From the NCBI RefSeq assembly GCF_000758665.1, contig NZ_CP009285.1, forward strand, positions 5,766,001 through 5,830,000: a DNA stretch of 64,000 nucleotides, given 5' to 3'. Below, one piece after another: positions 14,191 to 59,612 of this stretch. The notes under the pieces are model-generated. The model had not been told where the DNA came from, made no database searches, and saw nothing but the letters and a program-made list of their open reading frames with translations. The position numbers were made by a program, and so were the translations under genes. This DNA is from Paenibacillus borealis. GTDB lineage: Bacteria > Bacillota > Bacilli > Paenibacillales > Paenibacillaceae. Positions within the stretch are counted from its first letter, which is position 1; every line of letters begins with the position of its first letter.

Positions 14191-14415
14191 TGCATAAAAT
14201 ACAACATTTTCCTCCAAAAGCCGACCCGAATCCAAAATTGTTGTACAAAAGGCAACATTTCTCCTCATTCAAGCCGTTTAATGGAACAATTGTTGTATTT
14301 CATACAACAATTCTCCTGCACATCCCGATATAACAGTACCTAAGTTGTATTTCATACAACAATCCTCCCGCACATCCCGATATATCTGCATCCGAATTGT
14401 ATTTCATACAACACT
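14191..14415. repeat. Palindrome array A (about 52-nt period, five units)
   Basis: Five palindromic cores are centred near 14198, 14248, 14300, 14352 and 14404, a period of about 52 nt. The best core is TTGTTGTAT-TTC-ATACAACAA (14290-14310, perfect 9-bp arms); the next is GTTGTAT-TTC-ATACAAC (14344-14360). Spacers share a pyrimidine-rich start and CACATCCCGATAT. The first two units resemble the first two units of array B (43301-43470) in the same order. The rest of the gap between the GH88 and heparinase genes (13900-14562) holds the GC-rich tandem repeat and no credible gene. Confidence 0.85.
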
Positions 14416-14562
14416 TTACCGGATTTCGTCTGAACACCAGCGATGGACCGGCCGCTTTGTTGGCATCAACCATCGTCTTCTATGCGGGTTATATCCCCCA
14501 GCAGAGAAGCGGTATCCGCAGCGGATGCGGATACCTGGAATTGCGGCCGCTTAATTCAATGT

Positions 14563-16374
14563 TCACAGAAATTGAAAAGTGAATGCTAATGTGCCCTCCG
14601 CCCCGGGCTGAAGAACATGGAAGTCCAGACTGTGCCACAGTGTCTCCTGGCCATAATGATCCCGGTACACATGCGCGGTAATCTCCGGCTGGACTGCCTC
14701 CGGATCATAAGTGACCTCAACGCCGAGGCCCGTAGTGCCCGGCAGCAGTACGCTGCCCGGGTGAAGGAGCTTAGGCCTGCGCCAGGTTACAAACCGCTCC
14801 GTCCAGCTCGCCGGAGCTTCCTCGTACCGGTAACGGTCTGTCAATTCAAGACGGGGCAGCTCCTCTTTGTGCCATACCAGCGAACGCACTAAGGACTGCA
14901 GTCCTGGCACCGGATAAGCCTGTGCCATCTCCAGTGTCAGCTCATCCTTCTCCGCCGCCGCAGATGCATGCAGCACTGCGGCGCTGAACTCCCGGCCGGC
15001 ACCCTGGTACTGCCCGTTAATGACCGGCACCGAATGGCCCTGCGATCCATTGCAGTCATAGCTGTAACGGCCGGCACCGAAGTAGTCAGCGGTATATTCT
15101 CCGCTGCCCAGATCGGAAGCGTAGATCTCTCCCCGGCCGCTTAGAATGAAGTGGCCCAGATCATTATGATTATGCGGCTCATCATTGTGGCCGGCTTTGG
15201 CGGCGAACCCGAAGGCCCCTGCTGCCGGCACATGACGCGAGAGCAGCCAGGCGGCATCGGGAAGATAGCAGCTGGCAGCTTCCCACGCCTCATTCTCCCG
15301 GCCGGCTCTGGTCCAGATCAGATTGCGCAGCGCCGGTGCGAAGCGGCTGCAGTGATCGTCGGTGAACGGCGCGCGCAGAGCGGACGGAGGCCGCAAGACA
15401 TCCGCATAGGCATCCGCCAGATAATGGGACAGGCCCATGTGTACACGTACCTGAGGCACCGAATCCGAGAAATTGGCGACATGACTTTCGTCAATGAAGC
15501 ATTGTTGCTGGAAACGGGCGATCTGCGATACCTTCTCCTGCTTGAACCAGTCCAATCGGCCTCCGGTGCTTGTCCGGAGCAGATCACTATAATAAGTGAA
15601 ATAGCCAAAGCCATAATTCCAGTAGCCCAGCCCCTCCAGACAAGCGCCGTCCTCCCCGAAGCCTTCCAGATAATAGTTCATGCTGCTCTCTGTCTTCATT
15701 AGAATATCCGTTAGCATGGCTGCGTCCTTCACCAGCAGCAGCGCAGCTCCCCCGATGGAGCCCGCGCAGACTGCCGCCCAATTATGGCGTGATGTCTCCC
15801 AGAAATATGGACCCTGCTCAAGAAAAGGCCGGAAAATTCTGCGCTCTACCTCATACCGTATCCGGGACTGCAGCAGCAGCGGAAGCCGGTCCCCCAGCAG
15901 AAGGGATACTTCACTTAAGGTAAATCCCGTCTCGGAGGAGAACAGGTCAATATGCCGGCTGATCTCAGCAGCATCATGTTCTGCGGGAAGATGGGCCGGA
16001 AGACACCAGGTGTACTCATCACATATGACCCAGAGGATATCCTCCAGCTTCTCCAGAAACTCCGCACGATCCGGCTCCAGCAAGCTTAGAAATGCATAGG
16101 TATTCAGTCTTCTTCTCCGTTCGAAATAGACCCGTTCATATTCCAGTCTCGAACCGGTACGCGCAAAAATAGAAAATAGCGTGTACGTCAGCGCGGATAT
16201 AGGCTGACCCTCCAGCCGTTGCGCCTCTGCGCGAATCTCGCTAATATCTGCCTTTAACACTCCGGATGACAGCGCCCGGGTCCAAAAAGCAGCCGAATCT
16301 CCCTGCGGATAATACAAGCTCCAATCAGCCGGTTTCATGTCCTCCACAATACCGGCAAGCTCCTGTCTGTTCAT
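14563..16374 (-). CDS. Heparinase II/III-like protein
   Basis: A 603-residue protein with the heparinase II/III layout: an N-terminal alpha/alpha-toroid (about 20-370; motif TSRHNWAAVCAGSIGGAAL) and a C-terminal antiparallel beta domain starting near GHNDEPHNHNDLGHFIL, whose His/Asn cluster is the family hallmark. Family members are lyases on uronate polysaccharides such as heparin or alginate oligomers; the exact substrate is not evident. No signal peptide is seen, so it probably acts inside on imported oligomers and yields unsaturated uronates for the GH88 enzyme next door. ATG 16374 is 11 nt after GGAGG; GTG 16380 is 5 nt after it and equally possible. It is second in an operon after the short DUF2264 gene. 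Confidence 0.85.
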   Translation of the reverse strand: MNRQELAGIVEDMKPADWSLYYPQGDSAAFWTRALSSGVLKADISEIRAEAQRLEGQPISALTYTLFSIFARTGSRLEYERVYFERRRRLNTYAFLSLLEPDRAEFLEKLEDILWVICDEYTWCLPAHLPAEHDAAEISRHIDLFSSETGFTLSEVSLLLGDRLPLLLQSRIRYEVERRIFRPFLEQGPYFWETSRHNWAAVCAGSIGGAALLLVKDAAMLTDILMKTESSMNYYLEGFGEDGACLEGLGYWNYGFGYFTYYSDLLRTSTGGRLDWFKQEKVSQIARFQQQCFIDESHVANFSDSVPQVRVHMGLSHYLADAYADVLRPPSALRAPFTDDHCSRFAPALRNLIWTRAGRENEAWEAASCYLPDAAWLLSRHVPAAGAFGFAAKAGHNDEPHNHNDLGHFILSGRGEIYASDLGSGEYTADYFGAGRYSYDCNGSQGHSVPVINGQYQGAGREFSAAVLHASAAAEKDELTLEMAQAYPVPGLQSLVRSLVWHKEELPRLELTDRYRYEEAPASWTERFVTWRRPKLLHPGSVLLPGTTGLGVEVTYDPEAVQPEITAHVYRDHYGQETLWHSLDFHVLQPGAEGTLAFTFQFL

Positions 16375-16450
16375 GCCCACTTCTTCCTCCTTATCAGTGC
16401 CCATCTGATTCGTGCTGTACTTCATTCTCGCTATAGCGGCGGAACACCCG

Positions 16451-17593
16451 CTATTCCAGCGCGTGATCCCGCATAACATTCTCACCGTCTGCTATTCTTA
16501 GCGCAGTCCATTTCAGCTCTTCGCCCGCCCAGAAGGGGTCGGACGGAAGCAGCCCGAGCGGAAGGAATACCGCAGCGCATAAATAGAGGCTGCCCGTATT
16601 GATATAGCTCTCGGCCAGCTCCGGCTGATAGCCGTAGATCCCCGGACGCAGCCAGCCGTTCTCATCCAGCGTGCCCGGATAACTCATAATCCGGCTGATC
16701 ACTGCTGTCAAAGCACAGCGTACCTGTGCCGGAGGCAGCGCCTCCTCCAGGAAATGCTGCAGCGCTGCCTGCGACAGCAGCTGAAACGCGCCGAAACGGT
16801 ACACAATCGAGCGCCCGAGGAACGGATAGGTGCCGTCCGGGGCAATGCTCCGTTCGAGCACTGATGCATATCGCTGCGCCCGTTCCATAATCAGCGGCTT
16901 AAGTGCAGCATATTGCACCGATTCCTGTTCAAACAGGGCCACGACATCAACCAGCATCGGCTGAATCACAAAGCTGTTGTAATAATCCCAATGAAAATCC
17001 TTGCCGTCCCCGTAGACCCCATCACCCTTGTACCAGTCCATGAACATATGAACCGCATAACCGACACGCATCCGGTCATAGTCAGGATCGCCCAGTATAT
17101 ACAAAGCCGCTTCCACCATTGCACTGAACAGCAGCCAGTTGCTGCCGCTTGGAGCGGTCCGGCGTGTCTGCTTCAACGCGGTTATTAAATTGCCTTTGAC
17201 CCGCTCAGTCAGCTGACCTGTAATTGCTTTCGGTGCGCGCACCAGCGCATGGGCCAGAAAGGCTGCATCTACCAGCGGCTGGCCTTCCGTCTTGAACTCC
17301 ATATAGTCAGGCGACTGCGGATCGGCTGCTGCATCAATAGCTTCCAGCATCAGCCCGGCGTAACGGACTCTAAGCTGTTCTTCTTCGCCTTCAAGTCCCT
17401 CAAGCTCCAGCCATGGAGCCATTCCGCAGGCCAGTCTCGCAAAAGCCTCCAGATGGGCAAACTGACTCCGGTCACTATGAAACTCTGTTGGCAGCTGTTC
17501 TTTCAGTTTCCGCTTGGCCAATGCCTCCAGCACGGGTCCCCCGATCAGCAGCATCGTATCCAGCCAGTATTTACGCTGTTCCTTCCCATTCAT
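16451..17593 (-). CDS. DUF2264 domain protein, short form
   Basis: A 380-residue single-domain DUF2264 protein. It shares with the longer protein at 10858 the motifs SGSNWLLFSAMVEAAL, GDGVYGDGKDFHWDYYN and GRSIVYRFGAFQLLSQAAL. It is probably an alpha/alpha-barrel related to polysaccharide-lyase and unsaturated-uronyl-hydrolase folds, but its reaction is not established. ATG 17593 is chosen because GGGTGG lies 8 nt upstream; a GTG four codons earlier lacks a site. It leads the operon with the heparinase-like gene, is divergent from the AraC regulator at 17815, and has a structured repeat in its upstream region. Confidence 0.85.
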   Translation of the reverse strand: MNGKEQRKYWLDTMLLIGGPVLEALAKRKLKEQLPTEFHSDRSQFAHLEAFARLACGMAPWLELEGLEGEEEQLRVRYAGLMLEAIDAAADPQSPDYMEFKTEGQPLVDAAFLAHALVRAPKAITGQLTERVKGNLITALKQTRRTAPSGSNWLLFSAMVEAALYILGDPDYDRMRVGYAVHMFMDWYKGDGVYGDGKDFHWDYYNSFVIQPMLVDVVALFEQESVQYAALKPLIMERAQRYASVLERSIAPDGTYPFLGRSIVYRFGAFQLLSQAALQHFLEEALPPAQVRCALTAVISRIMSYPGTLDENGWLRPGIYGYQPELAESYINTGSLYLCAAVFLPLGLLPSDPFWAGEELKWTALRIADGENVMRDHALE

Positions 17594-17700
17594 CCACAAT
17601 TCCACCCTTTCAGGTATTCTTCTTCTCTAGTTTAGTGTGGTATTATTGCAATGTCTTTGCGAATAATGATGTTTTATTGCGTTTATTGCGATCACTAAGT

Positions 17701-17795
17701 GAAAATGGCTTTGCCGTCCTTTAATAGAACGCGGTATCGTTTCAGCGAGAAATAGAAGAATAATGATAGCGCGAAACATATAAATTCTTATATTT
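17701..17795 (+). repeat. Two-hairpin intergenic structured repeat, copy 2
   Basis: Closely similar to 2962-3053. It keeps the first hairpin (GAAA/TTTC ends, CCG/CGG) and the block CGTTTCAGCGAGAAATAGAAG. It also keeps the second hairpin, in which AAATAGAAGAAT pairs with ATTCTTATATTT with one mismatch. It ends at the ribosome site of the AraC gene, so the transcript leader of that gene would carry it. In copy 1 the same element precedes a YesN-type gene with an AraC domain. Confidence 0.75.
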
Positions 17796-17814
17796 GGAGA
17801 AAGGGGCAATCCCT

Positions 17815-18651
17815 ATGAAGCATGCCCAGTATTATGAGCCGTTCGCTGGTGATATTCTAGCCGGAATCGGCAATTCACCAATCTCGCCGACCAGGGATTT
17901 CCACATTCATGACCACTATGAAATCTTCCTGTTCCTCGGCGGCAACGTAAACGGCTTTGTAGATCAGTTCAGCTATCCGCTGCAGCGGGGCAACGTGCTC
18001 CTGTTCAACAATCACGAAATTCACAAAATCATCAATTTATCATCGGAGCCCTATGAGCGGCTGACGATTCATTTCAAAGCCCCGCTGGTTTATCCATTCT
18101 GCACCGCAACCACAAATCTGCTCGCCTGCTTCCAGAACCGCCAGCCCGGAGAGCATAATCTGGCCCATATGGAAGAACCGCTGCTTGCAGAGTACTTAGC
18201 ACTGGCTTCACTTCTGATGGCAGCATTAAAGAGCGGGCAGTATGGCAGCGAGGTGCTGGCTCTGACGTACCTGATTCAGATCCTGGTAATCGTCAATGAG
18301 CTGTACAGCCGCACCCGCTCCGCCGTGCCCAGCATTATTTCCTCACATATACAATCGGCCATGAGTTACATTGACAACCACCTGCACCTGAACCTCTCGC
18401 TCGAGCACATAGCCGGGGAACTGAACGTCGATAAATACTATCTCAGTCATCTGTTCAAGCAGCAGACCGGCGGAACCATCTACCGTTATGTCCTGCTCAA
18501 AAAAATCGCCTTATCCAAGCAGCTCTTGTCCGCCGGAAACTCCGTATCCGATACCTGCTATCTGTCCGGCTTCAACGACTATGCCAATTTCATCCGCACC
18601 TTCAAGAACATCACAGGCATCCCGCCCGGCAAATACGGTAAAAAAAGCTGA
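17815..18651 (+). CDS. AraC family regulator with cupin sensor domain
   Basis: A 278-residue AraC regulator. The N-terminal cupin-like domain (about 1-150; HIHDHYEIFLFLGGNV, LLFNNHEIHKI) should bind a sugar. The C-terminal double helix-turn-helix (about 175-278) contains NLSLEHIAGELNVDKYYLS and GFNDYANFIRTFKNITGIPP. The start at 17815 follows AAAGGGG by 8 nt. It is divergent from the DUF2264/heparinase operon and is the likely local regulator of the uronate-glycan block. The structured repeat immediately upstream may take part in its control. Confidence 0.93.
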   Translation: MKHAQYYEPFAGDILAGIGNSPISPTRDFHIHDHYEIFLFLGGNVNGFVDQFSYPLQRGNVLLFNNHEIHKIINLSSEPYERLTIHFKAPLVYPFCTATTNLLACFQNRQPGEHNLAHMEEPLLAEYLALASLLMAALKSGQYGSEVLALTYLIQILVIVNELYSRTRSAVPSIISSHIQSAMSYIDNHLHLNLSLEHIAGELNVDKYYLSHLFKQQTGGTIYRYVLLKKIALSKQLLSAGNSVSDTCYLSGFNDYANFIRTFKNITGIPPGKYGKKS

Positions 18652-18700
18652 TGTCCCCCTTATGATGGGGCGCTCTATTGAACTAAGGGGACGCTGGCTG

Positions 18701-18892
18701 GCGGAATTAGTGGGATAAATCCCTCTAAATTCCTCGTTCTGCCCACTTCTGGTGGATTTAGTGGGATTTATCCCTCTGATTTCCTCATTCTGCCCGCTTC
18801 CGGTGGATTCAGTGGGATTTATCCCTTTCATTTCCTCATTTCCGGCAAAACAGGCCGAATCTGATGTATTTATCCCTCTAATCCTGCGGGCA
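18701..18892. repeat. Palindrome array D (exact 51-nt period, four units)
   Basis: Units begin at 18709, 18760, 18811 and 18862, exactly 51 nt apart. The core palindrome is GGGATAAATCCC or GGGATTTATCCC (three units), degenerate in the fourth. The spacer keeps TTTCCTC, TTCTGCCC and GGTGGATT, and is shared with array F at 59491, where the core differs. The array occupies the gap between the AraC gene and the SLH giant gene (18652-18977) together with a terminator; no gene is seen there. Confidence 0.9.
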
Positions 18893-18924
18893 TCTAGAAA
18901 TTGAGGTCAAATTTCACATCCGTA

Positions 18925-18966
18925 TAAAAAACCTGACAGCCCGCTAAGCGCAGCTGCCAGGTTCTT
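18925..18966 (-). terminator. Rho-independent terminator of the SLH giant gene
   Basis: On the minus strand AACCTGGCAGC pairs with GCTGTCAGGTT (one mismatch) around a loop that contains CGCT/AGCG, and is followed by a run of T. It lies just past the stop codon at 18978. Confidence 0.85.
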
Positions 18967-18977
18967 TGAGCTCCTGC

Positions 18978-21900
18978 TTACAAATGTCCCAGCAGATTAG
19001 CGATGACTTGCGCGCTCTCTGCACGGGTCATGCTCTCTTGCGGCGCGAATTGCTGATTGCCGCGTCCCTTGATCAGCCCAGCCTGCTCTGCGGTGCCGGC
19101 TGCGTTCTTCGCCCAGTCATGAATCAGGGAATAATCACTGAACGCGCCTGCAGCTGTATCACTTACCTGGCTTACCTGGCTTACCTGGCTTCCCTGTAAG
19201 TACTCATAAGCGCGGACGATCATGACCGCCATTTCCTCACGGGTAATATGTTCATTGGGAGCGAATGAATCCTTGCTGCGTCCAAGCACGATACCCGCTT
19301 CATTTACTGCGGCTACAGCTCCGGCATACCATGACTCGGAATCCACATCCGCAAATGCCGGTGTACTTCCCGCCTTGAGGCCAAGCGCACGAGTAATCAT
19401 AGCGGCGAATTGCGCCCTGGTTACTTCCCCCTGGGGATTGAATTCTGTAGCCGAGATGCCCTCGATAATATGCTTCGCAGCCATAGACTTAATAACACTG
19501 TTCGCCCAGTTACTGCTGCTGACATCCACGAAGCTCTTGTTATACTCCAGCACGGCATACTGGCTGAAATGCTGCACATCGGCGGTGAATTTACCGTCAG
19601 CCAGTGTTCCGCCCATGTATTCAAGCGCACCGCTGGCAGCGATATAGTAGACGCCAAGCAAGCTGCGGTTGGCATTAGGATCTACAGTGAAAGTAAGAGT
19701 AAGCGGTTGGTCAAAAGCGGTTACCGGCACAGCTGTACCGTCCGCAGCAACAACCTCGAGGCTGAAGCTGATCACATCACTTGCCGCCGATAGCTGAACG
19801 GAACCGTTGACAGCCGGATTGTTCATCAGCTGCTCCGCAGCAGCCTTCGCTGTCTTCACGGCTGAAAGCTTAATTCTTGCCCCCTCCGGTTGTTCTCCGG
19901 CAACAGTAACCTTCTCCTGAATGCTCTTCAGCACTTCCGGAGTCAGATCCACTGCAACCGTACTCCAGGCGAGACGCAGGGTATTCTCTCCTGTAATTCC
20001 GGATAATCCTGCCGGAAGTAGTACGGATTCTGTAGCATCAGTGAGCTGAACCGTTATTACCCCGCCAGCCGGAGCCGCGAAATCACCAGTGCCAAGAACC
20101 TTCTCGGTCTGCGGCTGCGGCGCCGGTGACGGCGTAGCCGCTGGTGTTGGTGCTACCGTCGACACAGGCGAATCCGTAGGGGCCGGCGTTGCGGTTGGTG
20201 CTGTTGTCGGCTCAGGCTCAGGCGTCGGTGTTGGTGTCACCGGCGGCTGTTCTGCTTCGCCTACAGTCACCGTTCTGGTCACTTGGGCAGCCGCATTGCC
20301 CGCAGTATCCGTCACATTATAATGATACAAATAGGTACCCGCTGCTGAGGTATCCAGCGTCAATACAGACTCCCCGTCCTTCGTAATCGTCGCCACGATG
20401 CGCTCCGTAATGTCTCCGTCGCGGTCATCTGCCGCAGTAGCTCCGGCATCGGTATAGCTTACGCCATTCTCCAGTTGAATGGATTCTTCCCCAAGCAGGG
20501 TTATCACCGGCTTCGTTACATCCGGGTCAAGTGCAACGACTACGGTTCTTGTTACTTCCTCCGCTGAATTGCCTGCGTTATCACTGACATTATAATGGAA
20601 GGTATAAATATCCTCTACCGCCGTATCCAGCTCTGCCAGGCCATATACTTCACTGGTAACTGTTGTAACGATACGGCCAGTTATATCTCCGTCCTGATCA
20701 TCAACAGCCGTTGCTCCGGCATCGGTATATTCCGCACCAACCGGCAGATTAACTATCGCCTCGCCATTCAGATTAATTACCGGCAGAACCGTATCCGGTA
20801 CCGGCAGCGTAATTGCTCCGCTGGCAGAACTATCCGCCTTCGCCTCCCCCTTGCTCAGCGTAACCGAGAAGGTGAAGCTGCCGTCCATGTCGTCTGTTGC
20901 TTCCTGGAATGGCGACAAAGTGATATCACTCATGGTAACGCCGGTAGCACTGAAGCCGGGCAAGCCGTTTATGGTTTGCACAAGCCAGGCCTGAACAGCC
21001 TCTTCACTGTTTGCCGTTTCCTTCCCTACATCGTAAGCTGCACCTTCAATAATACTCTTGGCCTCGTTGACTGCCTGCTCATTGGCAACGCTGACCTTGT
21101 CTCTGGCTACAGCTACATAGCTGATTACCGCAGCCTGACTGAACGTATTGTACACTGAATAGGTCACGGTACCGTTCACGGGCAGCGTGAAGTCATGATT
21201 GACTGCGGTACCCGCAGGACCTGCAACCAGGCCGGTACGGACCTTTTCAGATACGGCTTTCCCTTCCGCATCAGCATAACTGAGTGTAATATCCATGGTC
21301 CGGCTGCTGTTGTTCCACCAGTCCAGATGATAGGAAGTAATCGTATATTTGCCTGCATTCAGAGGCAGCTTGTAGACCAGGGGTGTATTCTTCGTATTCG
21401 AGCTGTATACCCCAGTCTGAGCTTTGTCTGTAGCAACTACAGCTCCGCCAATTCCCTTGGGACTGTAGTTTGCCGTAATGTTGGTATGTCCCCAGACCGT
21501 ATCATCTGTAGACAACTGATCCGCCTTGTTATTCAGCAGGCTATTACCGACGAAATTCTTGATCGTTGTATATGGCGGGGTGTCGCCGTCTGCCGAAACT
21601 CCAGGGTCCAGGAAGTATAAGAGACCTTCCGGAACCACTTCCACATACGCTGTTGTCTTCAAATTTCCGAAAGTACCGGTTACAGCTACCCGTTCATATG
21701 GAGTGTCGAAGCTGACTGCGTCTACATTCCATTTCACAGTCACCTGCACCTTGCTGCCGTCAGCGCGCGTTGCTTCCAGCCTGGCCGGCAGATCCGGCTT
21801 CTTCCCGGCATAAGTAGCCGTATCCTGAGGAGCGGCAAGCTCCCTCACATCGCCTACAACCAGCCCGATATAGGCAGATGTCAATCGCGCTTCAAGCTGC

Positions 21901-25652: not shown

Positions 25653-25755
25653 TCATTCATCCTCCTCTTTTGCATGTAAGTATGTGATTTTATCTTCGTT
25701 GTTAGAAGAATAATCCTTCTCGGCTGACCTCCATCGTTCACCCTGCATAGTGGTT

Positions 25756-25799
25756 ATAAAAATACCCGGCAGACTGCGAAAAGCTGCAACTGCCAGGCG
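25756..25799 (-). terminator. Terminator of the first ABC importer operon
   Basis: On the minus strand CCTGGCAG (25797-25790) pairs with CTGCCGGG (25772-25765) with one mismatch, followed by TATTTTTATA. It lies downstream of the permease stop at 25810. Confidence 0.7.
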
Positions 25800-25809
25800 C
25801 ATTACTGTT

Positions 25810-43146: not shown

Positions 43147-43214
43147 TATATGGATCGGCGAGGCTATAAATCAAATAAAAATAGCTAATACTTCATTGAA
43201 AGGTTAGGCTGCCG

Positions 43215-43250
43215 TTGCGGTTGCGGTTGCGGTTGCGGTTGCGGTTGCTG
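43215..43250 (+). repeat. Hexanucleotide microsatellite (TTGCGG)
   Basis: Five perfect TTGCGG units followed by TTGCTG. It sits in the noncoding gap after the GH36 terminator, directly before array B. A similar GTTGCGG text appears in the low-complexity segment of the GH38 gene. Confidence 0.9.
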
Positions 43251-43300
43251 CCGTTACTGTTGCGGTAAATTCCTGCTTAAGCGGCTGCTTTTAAAATCCT

Positions 43301-43470
43301 GCACCAAATACAACAATTCCCTCGCGATCACGGCCATAATCTGAAACTGTTGTACAAACTGCAACATTTCTGCTCCCTCAGACGGCTCAGCCGGATAATT
43401 CCTGCATTTCGTACAACAATCTGCCTGAACAGCCGGATATTTGTGAACCAATGTTGTAATTTGTACAACT
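43301..43470. repeat. Palindrome array B (about 51-nt period, four units)
   Basis: Cores are centred near 43306, 43357, 43410 and 43461. Unit 2 has TGTTG/CAACA arms and unit 4 has GTTGTA/TACAAC arms. Units 1 and 2 match units 1 and 2 of array A in order: TCCTGCA..AAATACAACA, then TGTTGTACAAA..GCAACATTTCT. This implies that a multi-unit block was copied, not single palindromes. Confidence 0.8.
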
Positions 43471-43556
43471 GTTTCGGTTAAATAAAGTTGGAATCTATGT
43501 CGAAAAAAGTGTGATATCTAATGTTGGCAATTATGATCGAACAACTTTTAATATCC

Positions 43557-46683: not shown

Positions 46684-46688
46684 AATTG

Positions 46689-47271: not shown

Positions 47272-47295
47272 AGACACCTTTCTGGTGTCTTTTTG
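47272..47295 (+). terminator. Rho-independent terminator
   Basis: AGACACC (47272-47278) pairs with GGTGTCT (47284-47290) around TTTCT, followed by TTTTT. It is 143 nt downstream of the gene at 46740. Confidence 0.85.
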
Positions 47296-48000: not shown

Positions 48001-48034
48001 AATTGCACATTGTGCAATTTTGCTCTTTGAGCAA
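48001..48034. promoter_or_regulatory. Two palindromes upstream of TetR gene
   Basis: AATTGCACATTGTGCAATT (48001-48019) is a perfect palindrome with 9-bp arms, followed at once by TTGCTC-TTT-GAGCAA (48020-48034). They lie 66-99 nt before the TetR start. They are good operator candidates for autoregulation of the TetR-MMPL operon. No convincing -35/-10 pair was placed with certainty. Confidence 0.6.
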
Positions 48035-48099
48035 TAATATAGACTGTAGATAACAATTCAGCGTTCATCCTATACATAAGAAAGGAGGAAGCATACAAC

Positions 48100-48717: not shown

Positions 48718-48750
48718 ATAAATTCAGAGATAAAGAGGAGAAACCATCAC

Positions 48751-51099: not shown

Positions 51100-51100
51100 A

Positions 51101-51162
51101 TAACCCCGCAAAGCGGAGACTTAGCTTCGATAATTACTCAATTAATTTGCGGGGACCCCAAC
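51101..51162 (+). repeat. CCCCGC/GCGGGG hairpin repeat, copy 3
   Basis: CCCCGCAAA (51104-51112) pairs with TTTGCGGGG (51146-51154). The interior TTAGCTTCGAT and the tail GCGGGGACCCCAA match copy 2 at 31162. It begins directly after the MMPL stop codon and precedes a separate strong terminator. Confidence 0.75.
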
Positions 51163-51216
51163 ATATATTAGTTCATCAAAAATAATGGACGGCATCACCG
51201 CCGTCCGCCCCCAAAC

Positions 51217-51258
51217 AAAAGAGGGCCTGCAGACATTGTCCGCAGGCCCTCTTTTCTA
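51217..51258. terminator. Strong bidirectional terminator
   Basis: AAAAGAGGGCCTGC (51217-51230) pairs perfectly with GCAGGCCCTCTTTT (51242-51255). It ends the TetR-MMPL operon. A further hairpin GGACGGC/GCCGTCC lies just upstream (51188-51206). Confidence 0.92.
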
Positions 51259-51437
51259 TACAACAGCTCTTCTCAAGCTACACTGAAAACCACATGCTTC
51301 CCAGCTGCCAGCGCCTTATCGTAAAAACCCAGAAGACCTACAATTCACCCTTTAATTCCTGTCTCAGCGTTTCCGTTCCGTAACCCGGCTTCAGCGTTCC
51401 CATCAGCTTTACTGAACTCACTTCTATAGTTCTGATG

Positions 51438-51672
51438 TTGTACTTGTACAATTGACGGATTCAGTTCCAAGTGGAAATTCAGTAATAGTTGTATACTGTA
51501 CAATTAAAAACAGCGAAAAGGCAGGCTTGAGTCTTATAACTGTAGTCTGTACAACTAAATTTGCCCGAATGGGTGAGTATCAGGCTGTAATCGCAGTTTA
51601 ATTGTACGAAATACAACTAAACGGAGAATCGGTTGAAAAACATAACTTTTAGTTGTACAAAGTGCAATTAAG
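51438..51672. repeat. Palindrome array C (51-nt period, five units)
   Basis: Five TTGTA-N4/5-TACAA cores are centred at 51444, 51496, 51547, 51609 and 51660: steps of about 51, 51, 62 and 51 nt. Several cores extend to AGTTGTA...TACAACT. Spacers are more divergent than in arrays A and D. The rest of the gap 51256-51785 shows no gene. Confidence 0.8.
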
Positions 51673-51785
51673 CATACTGCGTATACCGTAATCGGGTCAC
51701 TGCAAATCCTCAGTAAGCGATTTACCAATGTGGTTTTCACCAGTTGAAATCTGACGCTATACAAGTATCCTTACACCATCTTCTT

Positions 51786-53240: not shown

Positions 53241-53821
53241 GCCCTGTCCCCCTCCCGTGCGTAAGCCTCAAATCCTCCCGTGACTAATACTGCCACCTTA
53301 CGGGCGACTTCCTCTTTGTCCATGCTGATCTCCCCGGACACCCATTGAACAGCTCCTTCATGGATAGCCTGGGCAGCAAAAGAAGCCATTATTTTCCGCT
53401 CACCCTCCGTATAGAGACTACCCAGACCGTCCAGCAAATAAGCCTTGAGCGCAGTTAACATCTTATCTCTGAGCTGCGGTACGACGAATCCTATATAGCT
53501 GCTGCGGCAGCTCACCTCCGGCTGGTCATAGAAATCGCACACGGCCAGAACAAGCTGCCCGATGCTGTCCGGGTCAACCTTCACTTTCCCTGCAGTGTGT
53601 TGTCTGATGGCTGCCGATGCAGAGTCCCCCATCATGTAGTCCAGTAATTCGTATTTATCATTAAAATGTGCATAGAAGGTAGCCCGGTTCACTTTAGCCC
53701 GTTGGGTGATATCGGCAATCGTGATTTTCTCGAAATCCTTCACGGACACCAGCTCGATAAAAGCACCCGCCAACGACTCCTTCGTATGCGTCACCCGTAC
53801 ATTCATTACTTTATTCGCCAT
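53222..53821 (-). CDS. TetR family transcriptional regulator
   Basis: A 199-residue TetR protein: helix-turn-helix at about 28-60 (ITIADITQRAKVNRATFYAH) and a C-terminal domain with DFYDQPEVSCRSSYIG, resembling TetR_C_8-type regulators of Bacillales. GGGAGG lies 6 nt upstream of ATG 53821. Operon with cls; divergent from the SDR gene at 53973. The palindrome at 53853 lies between them and is its likely binding site. Confidence 0.92.
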   Translation of the reverse strand: MANKVMNVRVTHTKESLAGAFIELVSVKDFEKITIADITQRAKVNRATFYAHFNDKYELLDYMMGDSASAAIRQHTAGKVKVDPDSIGQLVLAVCDFYDQPEVSCRSSYIGFVVPQLRDKMLTALKAYLLDGLGSLYTEGERKIMASFAAQAIHEGAVQWVSGEISMDKEEVARKVAVLVTGGFEAYAREGDRAWNLQV

Positions 53822-53852
53822 AGCATCCTCCCGCCCGACAATAGGTACGTCT

Positions 53853-53868
53853 TGTTGCTATAGCAACA
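53853..53868. promoter_or_regulatory. TetR operator candidate
   Basis: TGTTGCTATAGCAACA is a perfect 16-bp palindrome. On the minus strand it overlaps a possible -35 (TTGCTA) placed 17 nt from TATTGT, for the TetR-cls operon. Matching half-sites TGTTGC (53889-53894) and GCAACA (53926-53931) flank the SDR promoter on the other side. Confidence 0.65.
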
Positions 53869-53887
53869 TCTGCACCTGTTTTGTTGA

Positions 53888-53916
53888 TTGTTGCGCTGCA
53901 TGATAAGCGGTATATT
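53888..53916 (+). promoter_or_regulatory. Promoter of the SDR gene
   Basis: -35 TTGTTG (53888-53893), 17-nt spacer, -10 TATATT (53911-53916), 56 nt before the SDR start. The -35 overlaps a TGTTGC half-site shared with the palindrome at 53853, so the TetR protein probably controls both directions. Confidence 0.6.
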
Positions 53917-53972
53917 CTGATTAAAGCAACACGCGTTAATTTAATATATCACATCGAAGGAGAGTTTAAACT

Positions 53973-54650
53973 ATGAGAACTATTGCAATCGTCGGCGCAG
54001 GCCCCGGATTAGGCCTGTCGTTAGCCAAAAAATTCGGGGAGAACGGATTCAGGGTAGCCGTAATCTCGCGTAATGCAGAGAAATTAGCCTTGATCGTCAG
54101 CGGGCTTGAACAGCTCCATATTGGAGCTCAAGCTTTTGCGGCAGATGTTACGGATTTGAGTTCTTTACAGCGGGCCCTCCGGGCGGCAAAAGAAACGTTT
54201 GGTCCAATCGATGTGCTGGAATTCAGTCCTTATGCGGGCTGGGCGACATTCACCAGTGTCCTGGAAACTACGCCGCAAAGTACTCTTGAACAAATCAACA
54301 GCTATCTGCTGCCGGCCATTCTGTCTGTGAATGAGGTATTACCCGATATGATGAACAGCCGCTCCGGAGCGATTCTGTTTACGACCGGGATCTCGGCGAT
54401 GTACCCGCTGCCTTTTGTCGGGAATGGGGGAATTGTAATGTCGGGGATTCGTAACTACGCGGCCAATCTGCACAATGAGTTAAAAGATAAGGGGATATAC
54501 GTCGGGCATCTGTCCATCGGAACCGCAATCGAGGCCGGAACGGCAGGTGACCCTGATGTCATTGCAGAGACTTGGTATAGACAATATGAGAGTAAGGAGC
54601 AGTTTGAGGCGGTATTTCCTCAGGGGTTTGATCCGGCGGTGATGGGCTGA
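53973..54650 (+). CDS. SDR family NAD(P)-binding oxidoreductase
   Basis: A 225-residue short-chain dehydrogenase-like protein. The dinucleotide motif is GAGPGLGLSLAKKF (variant of TGxxxGxG), followed by SRNAEKLALI. The usual catalytic Tyr-x-x-x-Lys is not clear: the matching region reads GGIVMSGIRNYAANLHNELK, so a standard SDR reaction may be absent. AAGGAG precedes ATG 53973. Divergent from the TetR-cls operon and probably repressed by that TetR protein. Confidence 0.85.
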   Translation: MRTIAIVGAGPGLGLSLAKKFGENGFRVAVISRNAEKLALIVSGLEQLHIGAQAFAADVTDLSSLQRALRAAKETFGPIDVLEFSPYAGWATFTSVLETTPQSTLEQINSYLLPAILSVNEVLPDMMNSRSGAILFTTGISAMYPLPFVGNGGIVMSGIRNYAANLHNELKDKGIYVGHLSIGTAIEAGTAGDPDVIAETWYRQYESKEQFEAVFPQGFDPAVMG

Positions 54651-54667
54651 TAAATAAGGGAAATAGT

Positions 54668-54716
54668 AAAAGCGGTAGGACAACCCTTGAAGGGGTAATG
54701 TCTTACCGCTTTTTTC
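54668..54716. terminator. Bidirectional terminator
   Basis: AAAAGCGGTA and GACA pair with TGTC and TACCGCTTTT with a bulge, and a run of T follows on the plus strand. It serves the SDR gene and the convergent gene at 54703, overlapping the last codons of the latter. Confidence 0.85.
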
Positions 54717-55077
54717 CAATAATGATATTCAAACAAATAAGTACAATCATAGCCGTGTTTGCTATTAGCGCCCCAATATAAACATCCGATAATCTGGTTC
54801 GGTGTACCCATATCTTAACAATTTCACCCGACACCCCCATTTTCATTAAATAGGGTTCCAATCCCTCTGTAGTAAGCTTATCACCGTAGACCAGCGGTAT
54901 ATCAATAATATCGTTGGTTCCTATTTCGGGAGTAAATTCAGCCCATAATTGTTTGGCCCATCTGTCATATTTATAGCTGAATACTTCGTCTGATTCACGG
55001 TATTCCCACCTGTAATTCCCCGCAACACCTAATATCACGAGTGTAAGGATGCTGATTAGCAAAATTTTAAATTTCAA
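54703..55077 (-). CDS. Hypothetical two-helix membrane protein
   Basis: About 124 residues with an N-terminal hydrophobic helix (about 4-22) and a C-terminal helix (about 100-120) separated by a hydrophilic, aromatic-rich domain (WEYRESDEVFSYKYDRWAKQ, PLVYGDKLTTEGLEPYLMK) that should face outside. No family recognised. TTG 55077 is preferred since GGCGG precedes it by 4 nt; TTG 55104 is an in-frame alternative without a site. Its last codons lie in the terminator at 54668. Confidence 0.6.
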   Translation of the reverse strand: MKFKILLISILTLVILGVAGNYRWEYRESDEVFSYKYDRWAKQLWAEFTPEIGTNDIIDIPLVYGDKLTTEGLEPYLMKMGVSGEIVKIWVHRTRLSDVYIGALIANTAMIVLICLNIIIGKKR

Positions 55078-55158
55078 TAGGCCGCCTGCTTTCAGGACAA
55101 ACAAGTCAATCCAGATTGCTGGATAGAACTTGTTGCCCGTTATTTTCCATTCGCCCGC

Positions 55159-56085
55159 TCACTCCGGCAGCTGAAGCAGGTAATCACGCAGCTGACGATA
55201 AGCATCATCCCAGCCCATTTTGGCATAGAAACGGAGTGCGTCCAGACCTTTGAAATACCGCGCACCGGTCAGCCGTTCTTGGAAATCAGGGATGATGATT
55301 CCCTCCCTGTGTTGGTATTCCTGATAAGCTTGAACTACATCAAGCTCTCCTAAATTCCCTTCCAAGGTAGCCAGATCGACCAGGAAATCTCCATAGGCAA
55401 AATTGCCGTCGATGATTCCGGTGATCTGCCGGCCATCCGACAGGATATTCCAGGGCTGAAAATCCCCATGGATAAAATAGCGGTGCGGCTCGTTATATTC
55501 CGCATACGCCAGCAGACGGTGGTAGCATTCTTCGAATACATCCTTTTCCAGACAGGTCGCCGTAAATAAGCTGTGCCAGCCTTCCCAGAAGGTTCCGGTC
55601 TGATCCTCGGCGAAGAATGAAATAATATACTCCCGCCATGCCGGGTAAGTGCCGGCTCCGCTTGGCTGTATCCATCCGAAGCCGCTTGTTGCGCCGAGAC
55701 CGGCATGATTCATCCGGGTCAATATGCCGATAAGCTCAGGAAGCAGGCTGCTCTTCTCACGATCGGAACAATCCACAAGATTGCCGCCTCTAATCCGTTC
55801 CGAGATAGAATAGCTGAGCGGACCCGCTTTACCCTGCCCCAGACATTTGGCAAACGGGATGCCCTGGCTGGTTAACAGATTTGCTACAAAACCTTCTGTA
55901 TCGTAGGCTCCCTCCATATCACTAAACTTAATAATGTAGTCTTGCCTTTCATGCTCAAAGGAGAATACACTGCTGAGGTTTCCCCCTTCTACTGGCGTCA
56001 CCCTGAACGGACCTGCGCCAAAATGCTGCTTCAATACATTTTCTACTTCTGCAATCTCTAATTTTGCTTTCTCATATGCAGTCAT
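55159..56085 (-). CDS. Aminoglycoside phosphotransferase family protein
   Basis: A 308-residue kinase-like protein of the APH/hygromycin-phosphotransferase-like group. The N-lobe has FSFEHERQDYIIKFS (nucleotide Lys), the catalytic loop is YFIHGDFQPWNILSDG with the general-base Asp, and the metal-binding motif is IIDGNFAYGDFLVDLA. The true substrate may be a sugar or small metabolite as well as an antibiotic. ATG 56085 follows GAGGGCGG by 8 nt. Last gene of a run of three (57554 to 55159), the first of which is a degenerate relative. Confidence 0.88.
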   Translation of the reverse strand: MTAYEKAKLEIAEVENVLKQHFGAGPFRVTPVEGGNLSSVFSFEHERQDYIIKFSDMEGAYDTEGFVANLLTSQGIPFAKCLGQGKAGPLSYSISERIRGGNLVDCSDREKSSLLPELIGILTRMNHAGLGATSGFGWIQPSGAGTYPAWREYIISFFAEDQTGTFWEGWHSLFTATCLEKDVFEECYHRLLAYAEYNEPHRYFIHGDFQPWNILSDGRQITGIIDGNFAYGDFLVDLATLEGNLGELDVVQAYQEYQHREGIIIPDFQERLTGARYFKGLDALRFYAKMGWDDAYRQLRDYLLQLPE

Positions 56086-56124
56086 TGCGGCATCCGCCCT
56101 CACATAGCTATTGTGAACCCAACC

Positions 56125-56826
56125 TCAACCTTCACTAACATAATGGAGCACAGTTCCGTAGTATTTCATGAATCTCTTATAATCGTCATTCCCCGCCATA
56201 CTGATGACCGCCGGATAAGCATTAACCTTGCGCTGCCTGAGTGCAGCCAGTATATTCTTTTGGACAGGGCAATGAAATTTGCCTTCTGTATACTGAATCA
56301 CCAGCGGAGGGAATGCTGCTGTATCCTCATCTTGTACATGAGCCGGGTCATTACTGCTGCCCATATGTTCATCACGCCCTATAAGCCGCAGCGGAAACTT
56401 CACAACGCCGAAGTACAGCTGCTCTTGCTTCCCGGATTCCTCCTGCCCGGTTAAGGCCTTGCGGGTGAGCAGCAAATAACACTGAATCCATTCTTCGATC
56501 ATTCCGGCATCCATGAACTGTACAGCCGACTCCACAGTCGGGGCATACGTTAAAAGCCGGTCATTTTTCTTCGAGTAGATGATCTTCTTCACCGAATCCA
56601 GGGACAGGTAATATTCATCTGCGATTTCCGCAATCGTCACTCCATGCGCGTACTTGTTGCGGATCATCAGGTTGCGCTTTTGCAGCCGCTCTCTGTATCC
56701 TGTCGACTCTCCCCAGGCCTTCTTCTCATCCCCTGCCGGGAAATACAGAAGCCTGCCTGCCGCATATTTCTGGACTTCCCTTAATAACTCCTCCGGGATC
56801 ACATCACCGGCATGCTCATATTTCAT
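56125..56826 (-). CDS. Mor/CD3324-like HTH protein with extra C-terminal domain
   Basis: A 233-residue protein. Residues 1-90 resemble Mor-activator/CD3324-type DNA-binding proteins: PEELLREVQKYAAGRLLYFP, GYRERLQKRNLMIRNKY and the helix-turn-helix VTIAEIADEYYLSLDSVKKI. The C-terminal 140 residues (PLRLIGRDEHMGSSNDPAHV) are not recognised and exceed the usual size of about 90-100, so this is probably a fusion or a larger sub-family. ATG 56826 is used with GAAGGTG 9 nt upstream; it starts 23 nt after the preceding gene's stop. Sits between two phosphotransferase-like genes. Confidence 0.75.
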   Translation of the reverse strand: MKYEHAGDVIPEELLREVQKYAAGRLLYFPAGDEKKAWGESTGYRERLQKRNLMIRNKYAHGVTIAEIADEYYLSLDSVKKIIYSKKNDRLLTYAPTVESAVQFMDAGMIEEWIQCYLLLTRKALTGQEESGKQEQLYFGVVKFPLRLIGRDEHMGSSNDPAHVQDEDTAAFPPLVIQYTEGKFHCPVQKNILAALRQRKVNAYPAVISMAGNDDYKRFMKYYGTVLHYVSEG

Positions 56827-56849
56827 ACATTCATTCACCTTCTACAGGG

Positions 56850-57554
56850 CTAAAGAGCGTAGATCCGGTCCTTCAGCTCACTTATGGATTTAACTATGGA
56901 CTTGCAGGAGCACTCATCATCAATGGAGGCATGCCAACGCAAGGTGTCGATTCCTTTGTAATACGCCATGCATAAGAAGCGTTCTTTGAAATCCGGGATG
57001 ATGATATTCCTGGTCTTGCAGTATTCATTGAACAGCTCCGGGATGTTGAAGTAAGGCTCATTCAGATCCATATTAGCGATATCTACCAGACAATCGAAAA
57101 TCCCGCACTTGCTCCAATCCGGGAAACCAAGCACTGCCCGGCCGTCTGTGATCATATTTTTGAAGTACGCATTATTATAAACCAGGTAACGCTGGCCTTC
57201 GCAATAATGGATACGGTCTTCCATTTCCTTATAGTACTGCTCGAAGAAGTCACGGTCCAGCACGGTGGTGTCGAACATCTCCCGCCAGTTGAACCAGTAG
57301 CCCTCCCTTTTTTCATCGAATGTTCCCGTCAGGAACTCCCGGCAGGTTGTAAATTCCGTCTTGCCCTCTTCATCCAGCCAGCCATAGCCTGCTATGCCCG
57401 ATATATCGGAGGAAGAGATCTCCAGGATGTTGTCAAAAAACAACTCAGAGCGTTCAGCAAACTCTTCTGCGCTTAACTGATCAGCAGCAAACCCGTTCGG
57501 TGTCATATTCACCTTGTCAGACAGCAGCGATTTAAGAAAATTGTCCTTCCCCAT
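56850..57554 (-). CDS. Degenerate phosphotransferase-like protein (probable pseudo-kinase)
   Basis: A 234-residue relative of the APH-like protein at 55159. Matching blocks are the GYGWLDEEG region (GFGWIQPSG in the relative), FEQYYKEMEDRIHYCEGQRY (FEECYHRLLAYAEYNEPHRY), the catalytic-loop equivalent LVYNNAYFKNMITDGRAV, and FPDWSKCGIFDCLVDIAN. The catalytic HGD is replaced by YNN, and the metal-site IDG by PDW. The nucleotide-binding N-lobe is also missing because the protein starts near the linker. Kinase activity is therefore unlikely. ATG 57554 follows GGTG by 8 nt; a longer frame to 57671 has no site. Confidence 0.7.
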   Translation of the reverse strand: MGKDNFLKSLLSDKVNMTPNGFAADQLSAEEFAERSELFFDNILEISSSDISGIAGYGWLDEEGKTEFTTCREFLTGTFDEKREGYWFNWREMFDTTVLDRDFFEQYYKEMEDRIHYCEGQRYLVYNNAYFKNMITDGRAVLGFPDWSKCGIFDCLVDIANMDLNEPYFNIPELFNEYCKTRNIIIPDFKERFLCMAYYKGIDTLRWHASIDDECSCKSIVKSISELKDRIYAL

Positions 57555-57699
57555 GATCATCTCACCTTTTTCCCATTCACTAGAATATACCAGCTGCGCA
57601 TCTGATATTAGAATGATACACCCAGAAATTCCAGGGAGATAGGTAATGAATTCCTTAAGGTAACTTTGCATAGAACCCCATACCGGTCAGAAGATAACA

Positions 57700-57733
57700 G
57701 AAAAACCGCCACCCCTCATCAGGTTTGACGGTT
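57700..57733 (-). terminator. Terminator of the HxlR gene
   Basis: On the minus strand AACCG-C pairs with G-CGGTT with CC/GG inside, followed by TTTTTCTG. It lies 15 nt after the HxlR stop codon. Confidence 0.75.
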
Positions 57734-57747
57734 CTCCCGTGCACAGC

Positions 57748-58119
57748 TTAAAACTCTTCCAAGACCTTGGATTTGTCACCATAAACCTTGTCCAGGTGAT
57801 CCTCCCCCCAATAACATAAAAGGTCCAGCGCGGGCTTTAATCCCCAGCCGTAAGACGTTAACTCATACTCCACTCTCGGCGGGATTTCCTGATAAATCTT
57901 TCGCGCTATAATCTCATCTTTCTCCAGGCCTCTTAGCTGGGTGGTCAGCATTTTTTGCGTAATGCCGGGGATTAACCGCCGAAGCTCGGACGTCCGTTTG
58001 CACCCTGTCATCAAATGATAGATGATCAAAGGCTTCCACTTGCCTCCCATGACCTCCAATGCCGCCTCTACTCCGACTCTATACTTCTTTGGCGTGCTAT
58101 TGTCATTCTGTTCTGTCAT
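57748..58119 (-). CDS. HxlR family transcriptional regulator
   Basis: A 123-residue winged-helix regulator with the family signature at about residues 19-60: EAALEVMGGKWKPLIIYHL and RTSELRRLIPGITQKMLTTQ, followed by the wing IYQEIPPRVEYELTSYG. GAGGAATAAGCA precedes ATG 58119. Divergent from the NAD(P)H oxidoreductase at 58324, a very common pairing in which the HxlR protein controls the oxidoreductase in response to electrophiles or quinones. No cysteine is placed near the N-terminus as in YodB, so redox sensing through that residue is unlikely. Confidence 0.93.
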   Translation of the reverse strand: MTEQNDNSTPKKYRVGVEAALEVMGGKWKPLIIYHLMTGCKRTSELRRLIPGITQKMLTTQLRGLEKDEIIARKIYQEIPPRVEYELTSYGWGLKPALDLLCYWGEDHLDKVYGDKSKVLEEF

Positions 58120-58233
58120 TGCTTATTCCTCCGTCAAAAGGCTGTATATATACCGGAAATATACTATCGGGTGCAGGGAACTTCAATGTTCCTATGGTAC
58201 CTTTCTCATCCTATAGAACATGAAAGTGCGTAC

Positions 58234-58262
58234 TTCCAGACATTTTTATTCCTGTTTATAAT
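58234..58262 (+). promoter_or_regulatory. Probable promoter of the oxidoreductase gene
   Basis: -10 TATAAT (58257-58262) with a weak -35 TTCCAG (58234-58239) at 17 nt. The weak -35 would fit activator or repressor control by the divergent HxlR protein. Placement of the -35 is uncertain. Confidence 0.45.
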
Positions 58263-58323
58263 AGCATCAGCCACTGATCATGGCTACAAATTGGCGGTTC
58301 AGAAAGGTAGTGAAGATACTAGC

Positions 58324-58905
58324 ATGAACGTATTAATCGTTGTTTCGCACCCAAGACCAGATTCCCTGACCTTTGCGGCTGCCCATCGTTTCGCACAGGG
58401 TCTGGCCGAAGCAGGACACGGCTATGAGATATTGGATTTGCACGGGATTGGTTTTGACCCTATTTTGAGAGGCTTAGACGAGCCTGATATGTCGATTGAG
58501 GAGCAATCCTTCTCACCTGAGGTGGAGAGGGAAATGAAGCGGATGAAGGAGCATGATGCCCTGGCCTTTGTTTTCCCCGTCTGGTGGTGGCATTTGCCGG
58601 CCATGCTGAAAGGTTATATCGACCGGGTGTGGAACAACGGATTTGCATACGGCAAGAACCAGCTTCATCATCAGCAGGTTCTGTGGATGGCTCTGGCAGG
58701 CGTGTCACAGGAACAGATGCAGAAGCGTAACTATGATGAAACGATTGCCCACCAGCTCAATGTAGGAATCGCAGATTATTGCGGGATCTCCAATTCCAGG
58801 GTTGAGTTTCTATACGAGACAACATTAGATTCTAATCCCCGGCATTATGAGCTGCTGCTTAACCAGGCCTATCAATTAGGCTTGAATTATGCGGAGCAAC
58901 AATGA
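58324..58905 (+). CDS. NAD(P)H oxidoreductase, flavodoxin-like fold
   Basis: A 193-residue FMN/FAD-dependent NAD(P)H:quinone oxidoreductase of the MdaB/KefF/YwrO type. The start MNVLIVVSHPRPDSLTFAAA gives the phosphate-binding loop. The central FVFPVWWWHLPAMLKGYIDR is the diagnostic flavin-site motif, followed by the VWNNGFAYG loop. It should reduce quinones or electrophiles in the cytoplasm. ATG 58324 matches the family N-terminus; the ribosome site is weak. The longer open frame upstream is not part of the protein. Confidence 0.92.
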   Translation: MNVLIVVSHPRPDSLTFAAAHRFAQGLAEAGHGYEILDLHGIGFDPILRGLDEPDMSIEEQSFSPEVEREMKRMKEHDALAFVFPVWWWHLPAMLKGYIDRVWNNGFAYGKNQLHHQQVLWMALAGVSQEQMQKRNYDETIAHQLNVGIADYCGISNSRVEFLYETTLDSNPRHYELLLNQAYQLGLNYAEQQ

Positions 58906-59113
58906 GGAATGATATAAGACGAATTGAAGAGGAATATAGGAGGAATAACAATAGGCGAATAACAGAAGACGAATAATATAAAACGAATAGTATAAAACGA
59001 ATAGTGGAAAGGACAAATTCACCCGGTTGGCGGACAGGGCGAGCCCATCGGAATTCATTCTCGCAACTGAAACTTGGCTTACTCATCATGACTCTGACTC
59101 CACAGCCAGCTAG

Positions 59114-59330
59114 GCGGACTGAAATTCCGCTATTGGTGCAAATTAGGCGGATTCGGTGATCAATCGGACTCAGAATCTCTTATATGGCCGAATCTCCTCC
59201 ATTTCAGGCTCGAATGAACAAGATAAGCGATTCTCAGTCCGCTTTACCCTGATTAAAAGCTTTTTGAGAGATATAACGGAATCTCAGTCCGCTTCACTCG
59301 GGGGTTTGACTTCTCAACGGAATTTCATCG
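59114..59330. repeat. Palindrome array E (degenerate)
   Basis: Cores with the consensus GCGGA-CTGAGAT-TCCGC, present in either strand sense, lie at 59114-59130 (GCGGACTGAAATTCCGC), about 59165, 59228-59243 (GCGATTCTCAGTCCGC), 59276-59293 and about 59318. Steps are about 50, 63, 49 and 41 nt, less regular than in the other arrays. Before it, 58917-59010 holds short A-rich direct repeats with ACGAATA(G/A)TATAAA text. The whole gap 58906-59772 lacks a credible gene. Confidence 0.6.
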
Positions 59331-59388
59331 TGTAATTACCCAAATAGGATTAAAATCACCCTAACGGGTGAATCCTGCTGGAGCTTAT

Positions 59389-59433
59389 GCAGCCTGTGCA
59401 GCCTGTGCAGCCTGTGCAGCCTGTGCAGCTTAT
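59389..59433 (+). repeat. 9-nt tandem repeat GCAGCCTGT
   Basis: Four perfect copies of GCAGCCTGT (59389-59424) and a degenerate fifth. It is between arrays E and F in the noncoding gap before the GH20-like gene's terminator. Confidence 0.92.
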
Positions 59434-59490
59434 GTAGGTTTTAAGGTCCCCCATCATTGCTCTATTGAGACTACTTCTAGGGCAGCAGCC

Positions 59491-59612
59491 GGTGGAATCA
59501 AGCGCACTATGCTCTTCATTTCCTCCTGCTGCCCACTCTCAGCGGATTCAGGTGCACTTTTGCTCCTTTTTCCCTCCTTGAACCCGCATCCGGGTGGAAT
59601 CAAAGGGATTTC
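59491..59612. repeat. Palindrome array F (50-52 nt period, three units)
   Basis: The anchor GGAATC/GGATTC recurs at 59494, 59544 and 59596. The spacer (TTTCCTC, CTGCCCACT, GCGGATTCAG) is like that of array D, but the core that follows the anchor reads GCGCACTATGCTC or GTGCACTTTTGCTC instead of GGGATTTATCCC. Confidence 0.75.

Follow-up and report, generated by a model that had tools for sequence, protein, structure and literature searches.

A stretch of 64,000 nucleotides of the Paenibacillus borealis chromosome (positions 5766001–5830000 of a single contig of 8156808 bases; hereafter, the window) contains, as originally predicted, six intergenic arrays of palindromic repeats. These arrays fall into four dispersed families, namely, A (arrays at window positions 14191 and 43301), B (18701 and 59491), C (59114), and D (51438). 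The strongest property of the repeats, which was absent from the original prediction, is their orientation by replication direction. Family B (with its sub-cores B1 and B2) and family C are locked to the direction of replication in P. borealis and six relatives, and an additional family, E, is probably locked likewise, whereas A and D are oriented at random. The families share a spacing of about 51 nt, and B was found mostly beside terminators and, in two pairs of corresponding sites, present in one species and absent in the other. To our knowledge, dispersed bacterial repeats are rarely so tightly tied to replication.

Orientation of the Repeats by Replication Direction

In the sampled stretches of the P. 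borealis genome, GC skew changed from positive to negative between 4.32 and 4.40 Mb and kept its sign on either side, and this switch indicates that the contig starts near the origin. The polar families obey one rule, with the - strand occupied in the right arm and the + strand in the left. B follows the rule in 36 of 37 clusters and C in all 27 copies. As for A and D, their orientation is random (A, 10+/11- in the right arm and 9+/10- in the left; D, 6+/6- and 7+/9-, respectively). In these counts, same-strand B matches within 3 kb were merged and eight D matches shorter than 80 nt were dropped. Extra pieces of counted A loci (8018586-, 6478802-, and 2715205+) and other-strand hits within counted elements (B, 1088037+ and 1088088+; C, 6232253- and 2861075+) were left out.

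The orientation was also analyzed in a 954-kb sample, which overlaps the above B and C loci and was partly picked around them. The rule was followed by 12/12 clusters of B2, 5/5 of E, 9/10 of B1, and 3/4 of C, the C exception being a divergent copy with strand scores of 173.5 vs 151. A further family, F, gave two clusters in one arm only and is little informative. F, a 51-nt family (AGTGGAAAAAGNGCAT), was noted at ~1.648 Mb, ~2.676 Mb, and ~6.957 Mb, and its orientation by eye agrees with the replication polarity at these three places. In the same sample, the octamer GAGAAGGG, which we take to be the Bacillus SRS octamer, gave 37 vs 5, a polarity exceeded by that of B and C.

In the six relatives, the arms were set independently by GC skew using ten stretches per genome. 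There, 81 B clusters were polar, 1 was anti-polar, and 7 were ambiguous; the corresponding numbers for C were 84, 5, and 19. D, in three of the six relatives, was divided 14 vs 18, with 8 ambiguous. Together, 228 of the 235 B clusters and C copies that could be placed in the seven genomes obey the polarity, and a further 26 in the relatives were ambiguous. For the relatives, B matches of one array were merged by hand, a single B match in the genome designated G034 was not used, and part of the B counts are lower bounds. Other-strand hits within counted C elements (G071, 3486406+; G042, 2413140-) and a C match on contig 2 of G071 were left out.

Gene direction (for C) and base composition were considered as sources of the polarity and rejected. 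Leading-strand genes made up 476 of the 718 sampled, and against a null of 66% the polarity gave p values of 4e-6 (B) and 1e-5 (C) in P. borealis and 7e-14 (B) and 1e-10 (C) in the relatives, the copies being partly orthologous and thus incompletely independent. The genes flanking C, counted for 26 of its 27 copies, are antiparallel to it in 30 cases and codirectional in 22. This control is clean for C only, since the 51-nt arrays keep reading frames open and make gene calls near B unreliable. With regard to base composition, C has no GC skew (+0.02) and yet is polar, whereas A is skewed (-0.33) and yet random.

Copy Number and the Genome-Wide 51-nt Period

With the query included, searches of the P. 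borealis genome gave 43 matches at 40 loci for A (best 40 of 188 candidates scored), 68 matches for B, 29 for C, and 36 for D, 28 of the latter being long copies. At most the 40 best candidates were scored per genome (six in the two surveys of 120 genomes described below), so that all copy numbers are lower bounds.

The unit length of about 51 nt proposed in the original prediction proved to be real, common to different cores, and shared throughout the genome outside the window. In 41 stretches of the P. borealis genome (864 kb), half or more of them picked around A loci, the numbers of repeat clusters show maxima at lags 51 (78 clusters) and 52 (43). Within the range of lags 25–80, the mean is 30.9 (maximum 41) for the other multiples of 3 and 9.2 (maximum 20) for the remaining lags. 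Additional families with the same period in this sample are B2, E (CGGTTTTTCGCATACATT), and F (AGTGGAAAAAG).

Anatomy of the Elements

The families have two layouts: A, C, and D have a fixed design of ~180–190 nt with four sites, and B is a tandem array. In aligned copies of A, C, and D, the four palindromic sites stand at constant places; the units within an element are unlike each other, whereas corresponding units are alike between loci. A and D have the common core TTGTA-N5-TACAA, and C consists of two forward and two reverse CGGA-N7-TCCG sites. The three distances between anchors of the sites are at their modal values in 40/41, 38/41, and 36/40 copies of A, in 27/28, 23/28, and 26/28 copies of D, and in 21/26, 23/26, and 21/26 copies of C. 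Converted by hand to distances between palindrome centres, the spacings are ~51-52-52 (A), ~51-62-51 (D), and ~50-62-50 (C). Thus, all of them are 50–52 nt except for one gap of 61–62 nt in C and D, corresponding to approximately 5 and 6 turns of the helix, respectively. The difference between 51 and 62 nt amounts to roughly one turn, as would be needed for an array of proteins on the same face of DNA. In addition, many C copies have a weakly conserved block located ~40 nt 5' of the first site, a potential hairpin with arms that differ between copies.

B is a true tandem array, in which 46 of 48 successive sampled units are 51 nt apart, and the number of units differs between loci. The sub-cores B1 (GGGATTTATCCC) and B2 (GGGGCAC..TGCCCC) often adjoin, and the remainder of the unit is common to both. 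Sampled E units are spaced by 52 nt in 10/10 cases.

The elements of the window are as follows:

14185..14413, + strand: A element with one duplicated unit; five sites of the TTGTA-N5-TACAA type, ~52 nt apart
18694..18885, + strand: B array; B1 core GGGATTTATCCC, 51-nt units; orientation as expected for the left arm
43294..43472, + strand: A element; four sites
51436..51763, + strand: D element; four conserved sites at ~51485–51675, core TTGTA-N5-TACAA, spacing ~51-62-51
59116..59297, + strand: C element; CGGA-N7-TCCG sites in the order forward-forward-reverse-reverse, spacing ~50-62-50; polar
59352..59696, + strand: B insertion unit; ends AAAATCACCCTAACGGGTGAAT ... CAGACGAATATCACAATTT; missing from the corresponding site of P. 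phytohabitans
59490..59616, + strand: B2-type 51-nt array within the B unit 59352–59696
59704..59752, no strand: A-tract and hairpin, the intrinsic terminator of the - strand gene 59773–61302, abutted by the B unit

The original prediction treated the six arrays as a single system with one architecture of 3–5 units. The data point instead to two classes (polar B, B2, E, and C; non-polar A and D) and to the above two layouts: A, C, and D have four fixed sites rather than free arrays (at 14191 one unit is duplicated), and C and D hold the gap of 61–62 nt. The arrays at 14191 and 43301 are one family, the array at 59491 has the 51-nt frame of the one at 18701 and represents a variant of that family, and A and D share a core. 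The program Tandem Repeats Finder called two of the six arrays (periods of 52 and 51) and left the other four uncalled.

The genes adjoining the repeats are ordinary, for example, those for an AraC-type regulator and a glycosyl hydrolase with SLH domains at the B array 18694. Short-period tandem repeats adjoin both A elements (14006–14133, 23 nt; 43210–43248, 6 nt) and the C element (58943–59005, 14 nt).

Family B as an Insertion Unit

The P. phytohabitans genome contains the A, C, and D elements of the window, D being at the same site with 95% identity. It is without the B unit 59352–59696, and C is followed there by a short stretch and then by the terminator. The converse case was found at another locus, where a B unit of ~670 nt, comprising B1 and B2 arrays, is present in P. 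phytohabitans and the corresponding site of P. borealis is empty, with flanks ~92% identical. Since a B unit is opposed to an empty site in both directions, B represents an inserted unit; in both pairs, either the filled or the empty state may be ancestral.

Eleven two-ended B units were identified (10 in P. borealis and 1 in P. phytohabitans; one of 12 matches, L087, was excluded by eye as spurious). They are 345 to 2145 nt long and have the common ends AAAATCACCCTAACGGGTGAAT and CAGACGNATATCATAATTT. GAAC directly precedes AAAATCACCCTAACGGGTGAAT in 6/11 units, and a CACCC..GGGTG hairpin is present at one end. Inspection of the flanks of the 11 units by eye revealed no clear terminal inverted repeats. 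According to an energy test, picked after the result of a stricter scan limited to short loops, an A-tract with a stable hairpin follows the B 3' end in 8/11 units, vs 3.9% of 1500 random intergenic places. The longest reading frame on the 3' side points toward the unit in 8/11.

The B unit of the window contains a perfect 9-nt tandem repeat, TGCAGCCTG (59388–59429), and similar 9-nt runs are seen in other B units. Many units have the 9-mer TTATCCACA, presumably a DnaA box, ahead of the 3' end (the window example at ~59660–59680 is degenerate); in the sample, this 9-mer occurs 13 times on the lagging and 4 times on the leading strand. In P. borealis, B cores at ~471.9 kb and ~1.345 Mb are both interrupted by TGCTGTTAGTATTAATCGTGGACACCCGTTAAGAGAAT, which at the former locus is followed by a reading frame resembling, by eye, an IS3-type transposase. 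An insertion sequence (IS) may thus use B cores as landing sites.

Distribution among Relatives

Among 120 genomes, with the best six candidates scored in each, A was matched in 16 and C in 18, P. borealis included in both cases. Matches of C are confined to its own genus; A was matched in 3 of 25 genera, those matches that lie outside Paenibacillus being short. Seven GTDB contig stretches, all of them from P. phytohabitans, contain an exact 24-mer of C (the P. borealis genome was possibly excluded from that set). A search with D gave no match in plasmids, and a search with A gave none in phages.

Orthologous C loci were identified for three P. borealis copies: L064 (L151 in G071 and L152 in G042), L061 (L154 in G059), and L056 (L153 in G068). 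The site cores are conserved there, and much of the spacers and flanks has diverged. At the C/B locus of the window, an E array lies close to the same gene in G051, G068, and G059. No match was found at this locus in G042, G071, and G038 (for G038 and G049, the match or coverage was limited to a single flank), and single-unit remnants of E were seen by eye in G042 and G071. D is absent at its window locus in G059 and G071, the only relatives in this comparison with a fully covered gap.

As for earlier descriptions, searches of the open-licence literature revealed no paper on these families, and a description elsewhere is possible. The consulted passages of the P. vortex paper give 231 tandem and 32 inverted repeats and contain no description of these families (PMC3012674).

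Possible Origin and Function of the Repeats

The explanation that we tentatively prefer, with a probability somewhat short of even, combines helically phased arrays with replication-fork-coupled spread of the polar class. Palindromic sites about 5, sometimes 6, turns apart would form same-face cooperative arrays for dimeric DNA-binding proteins. The original suggestion of binding arrays is compatible with the ~51-nt register. B would insert as a ~0.35–2.1-kb unit with defined ends beside an intrinsic terminator, probably through the hairpin or the single-stranded DNA that becomes accessible at the fork. With such fork-coupled insertion, the orientation of B would be set at insertion, and its internal 51-nt array would later gain and lose units. 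C may have a similar origin. The random orientation, equal phasing, and shared core of A and D suggest that both are binding sites of one protein. The original idea of a non-autonomous mobile element that expands locally suits B, which behaves as an insertion with an array of variable length.

Several observations weigh against this explanation. The stricter terminator scan was positive in 2/11 B units vs a background of 2.7%. No C copy has a terminator at its 3' side (0/26), and yet C is polar; usable D ends for this test were 0/28. C and D have a common layout and differ in polarity. A search for the Y1 transposase domain (PF01797), the only enzyme sought, gave 0 matches in the P. borealis genome vs 5 of 14 control genomes with matches. 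Exceptions to the polarity occur in P. borealis (3301664) and in G028, G034, G038, and G071, two of the five C exceptions being weak hits in G071. Local inversions were rejected as their cause, since no reversed skew was found around the exceptions in P. borealis, G028, G034, and G038 (the two in G071 were outside this check). The anti-polar B match in G028 (~6.5906 Mb) is a tandem array with a different core, AGAGGTAAAAGTACCTCT, and therefore may belong to a separate family. Finally, the present data hardly allow insertion bias to be told apart from selection.

Selection is indeed a serious rival, as insertion targeting leaves the polarity of C, a family without terminators at its 3' side, unexplained. 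In this case, which we consider unlikely, B, C, and E would be signals of arm direction for a moving reader (translocase, SMC, repair enzyme, or replisome), like enlarged KOPS/SRS sites. The polarity persists in old orthologous C copies and across seven genomes, and for B and C it is stronger than that of GAGAAGGG. On the other hand, the four sites of C are symmetric under reversal, so that a reader of the sites only would be blind to direction, B copies are gained or lost between close species, and the same gap in relatives may hold E or nothing. It is rather doubtful that the polar families form an arm direction code, in which tens of helically phased arrays per arm, kept in orientation by selection across Paenibacillus, would couple replication or segregation to nucleoid organisation, A and D being orientation-neutral sites of a second protein. 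A separate, improbable explanation is orientation-dependent survival: both orientations would arise, and the wrong one would be lost owing to unstable lagging-strand hairpins or repeats or to a need to stop head-on transcripts. Terminator-like hairpins are richer on the own (head-on) strand of B (11.3 vs 6.0 per kb on the other strand), and the unit number of arrays varies. Polar C, however, is symmetric (7.2 vs 7.6) and, as a fixed four-site element, has no array prone to slippage, whereas non-polar D is asymmetric (6.8 vs 12.8) and A slightly so (10.6 vs 13.5). The same figures led us to reject head-on terminator arrays as a source of the polarity and do not support the originally suggested terminator role.

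The proposal that the elements are transcribed and the palindromes form hairpins of structured RNAs has a very low probability. The consensus sequences do fold, and the variable hairpin just 5' of C has a mean score of 12.9 vs 10.6 ± 0.7 in 200 shuffles (23/26 copies), but the top score among the shuffles (13.0) is above the mean of the actual copies. Covariation analysis of A, C, and D revealed no stem-forming run within the 14 strongest column pairs. No Rfam match was found in the window, and none at E<=0.5 in six loci (L021, L244, L045, L109, L008, and L012). The probability is about as low that these are ordinary REP/BIME repeats mobilized by a RAYT (Y1) transposase; the high copy number of small palindromes between genes is in line with this proposal, and the above PF01797 result speaks against it.

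Returning to fork-coupled spread and its main rival, selection, either outcome would be valuable: a fork-coupled, terminator-favouring route of insertion or a new class of arm-direction signal, both testable in a culturable genus. A and D, with the same rhythm and random orientation, are natural internal controls, and a spacing of 5 and 6 turns leads one to expect protein arrays.

Comparison with Known Systems

REP/BIME elements are palindromic repeats associated with RAYT transposases. Like these, the families described here consist of numerous short palindromic copies that lie between genes and have conserved cores. They differ in the lack of a Y1 transposase match in the P. borealis genome, in the strict 51/62-nt spacing, and in the replication-locked orientation of B and C.

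As precedents for replication-oriented insertion, IS200/IS605 and Tn7 are reported to insert in accordance with replication direction, and several IS families to contact the sliding clamp (PMC5371812). IS200/IS605 elements and their non-autonomous derivatives resemble B and C, but not A and D, in an orientation that follows replication, and B in having a hairpin at one end. B differs in its long 51-nt arrays and terminator-adjacent target, again with no Y1 transposase in the P. borealis genome. Further precedents are group IIC introns, reported to insert at terminator stem-loops, and endonuclease-less group II introns, reported to depend on host replication (PMC7923331). B is similar in its insertion beside intrinsic terminators and, as proposed, in its reliance on replication; the window and the six loci gave no Rfam match to group II introns, an intron reverse transcriptase not having been searched for. 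Since the P. borealis genome has no Y1 domain and no Rfam match was obtained, B on present evidence belongs to none of these three systems, i.e., IS200/IS605, Tn7, and group II introns.

Miniature inverted-repeat transposable elements (MITEs) and Neisseria NIME-type arrays are likewise small, non-autonomous, and variable in their presence among relatives. The present families are distinguished by replication polarity and by the fixed four-site structure of A, C, and D, and no clear terminal inverted repeats were seen by eye in B. KOPS and SRS share with the polar families an orientation skewed by replication arm; they are octamers, whereas the elements described here extend from ~185 nt to 2 kb and are present in tens to hundreds of copies.

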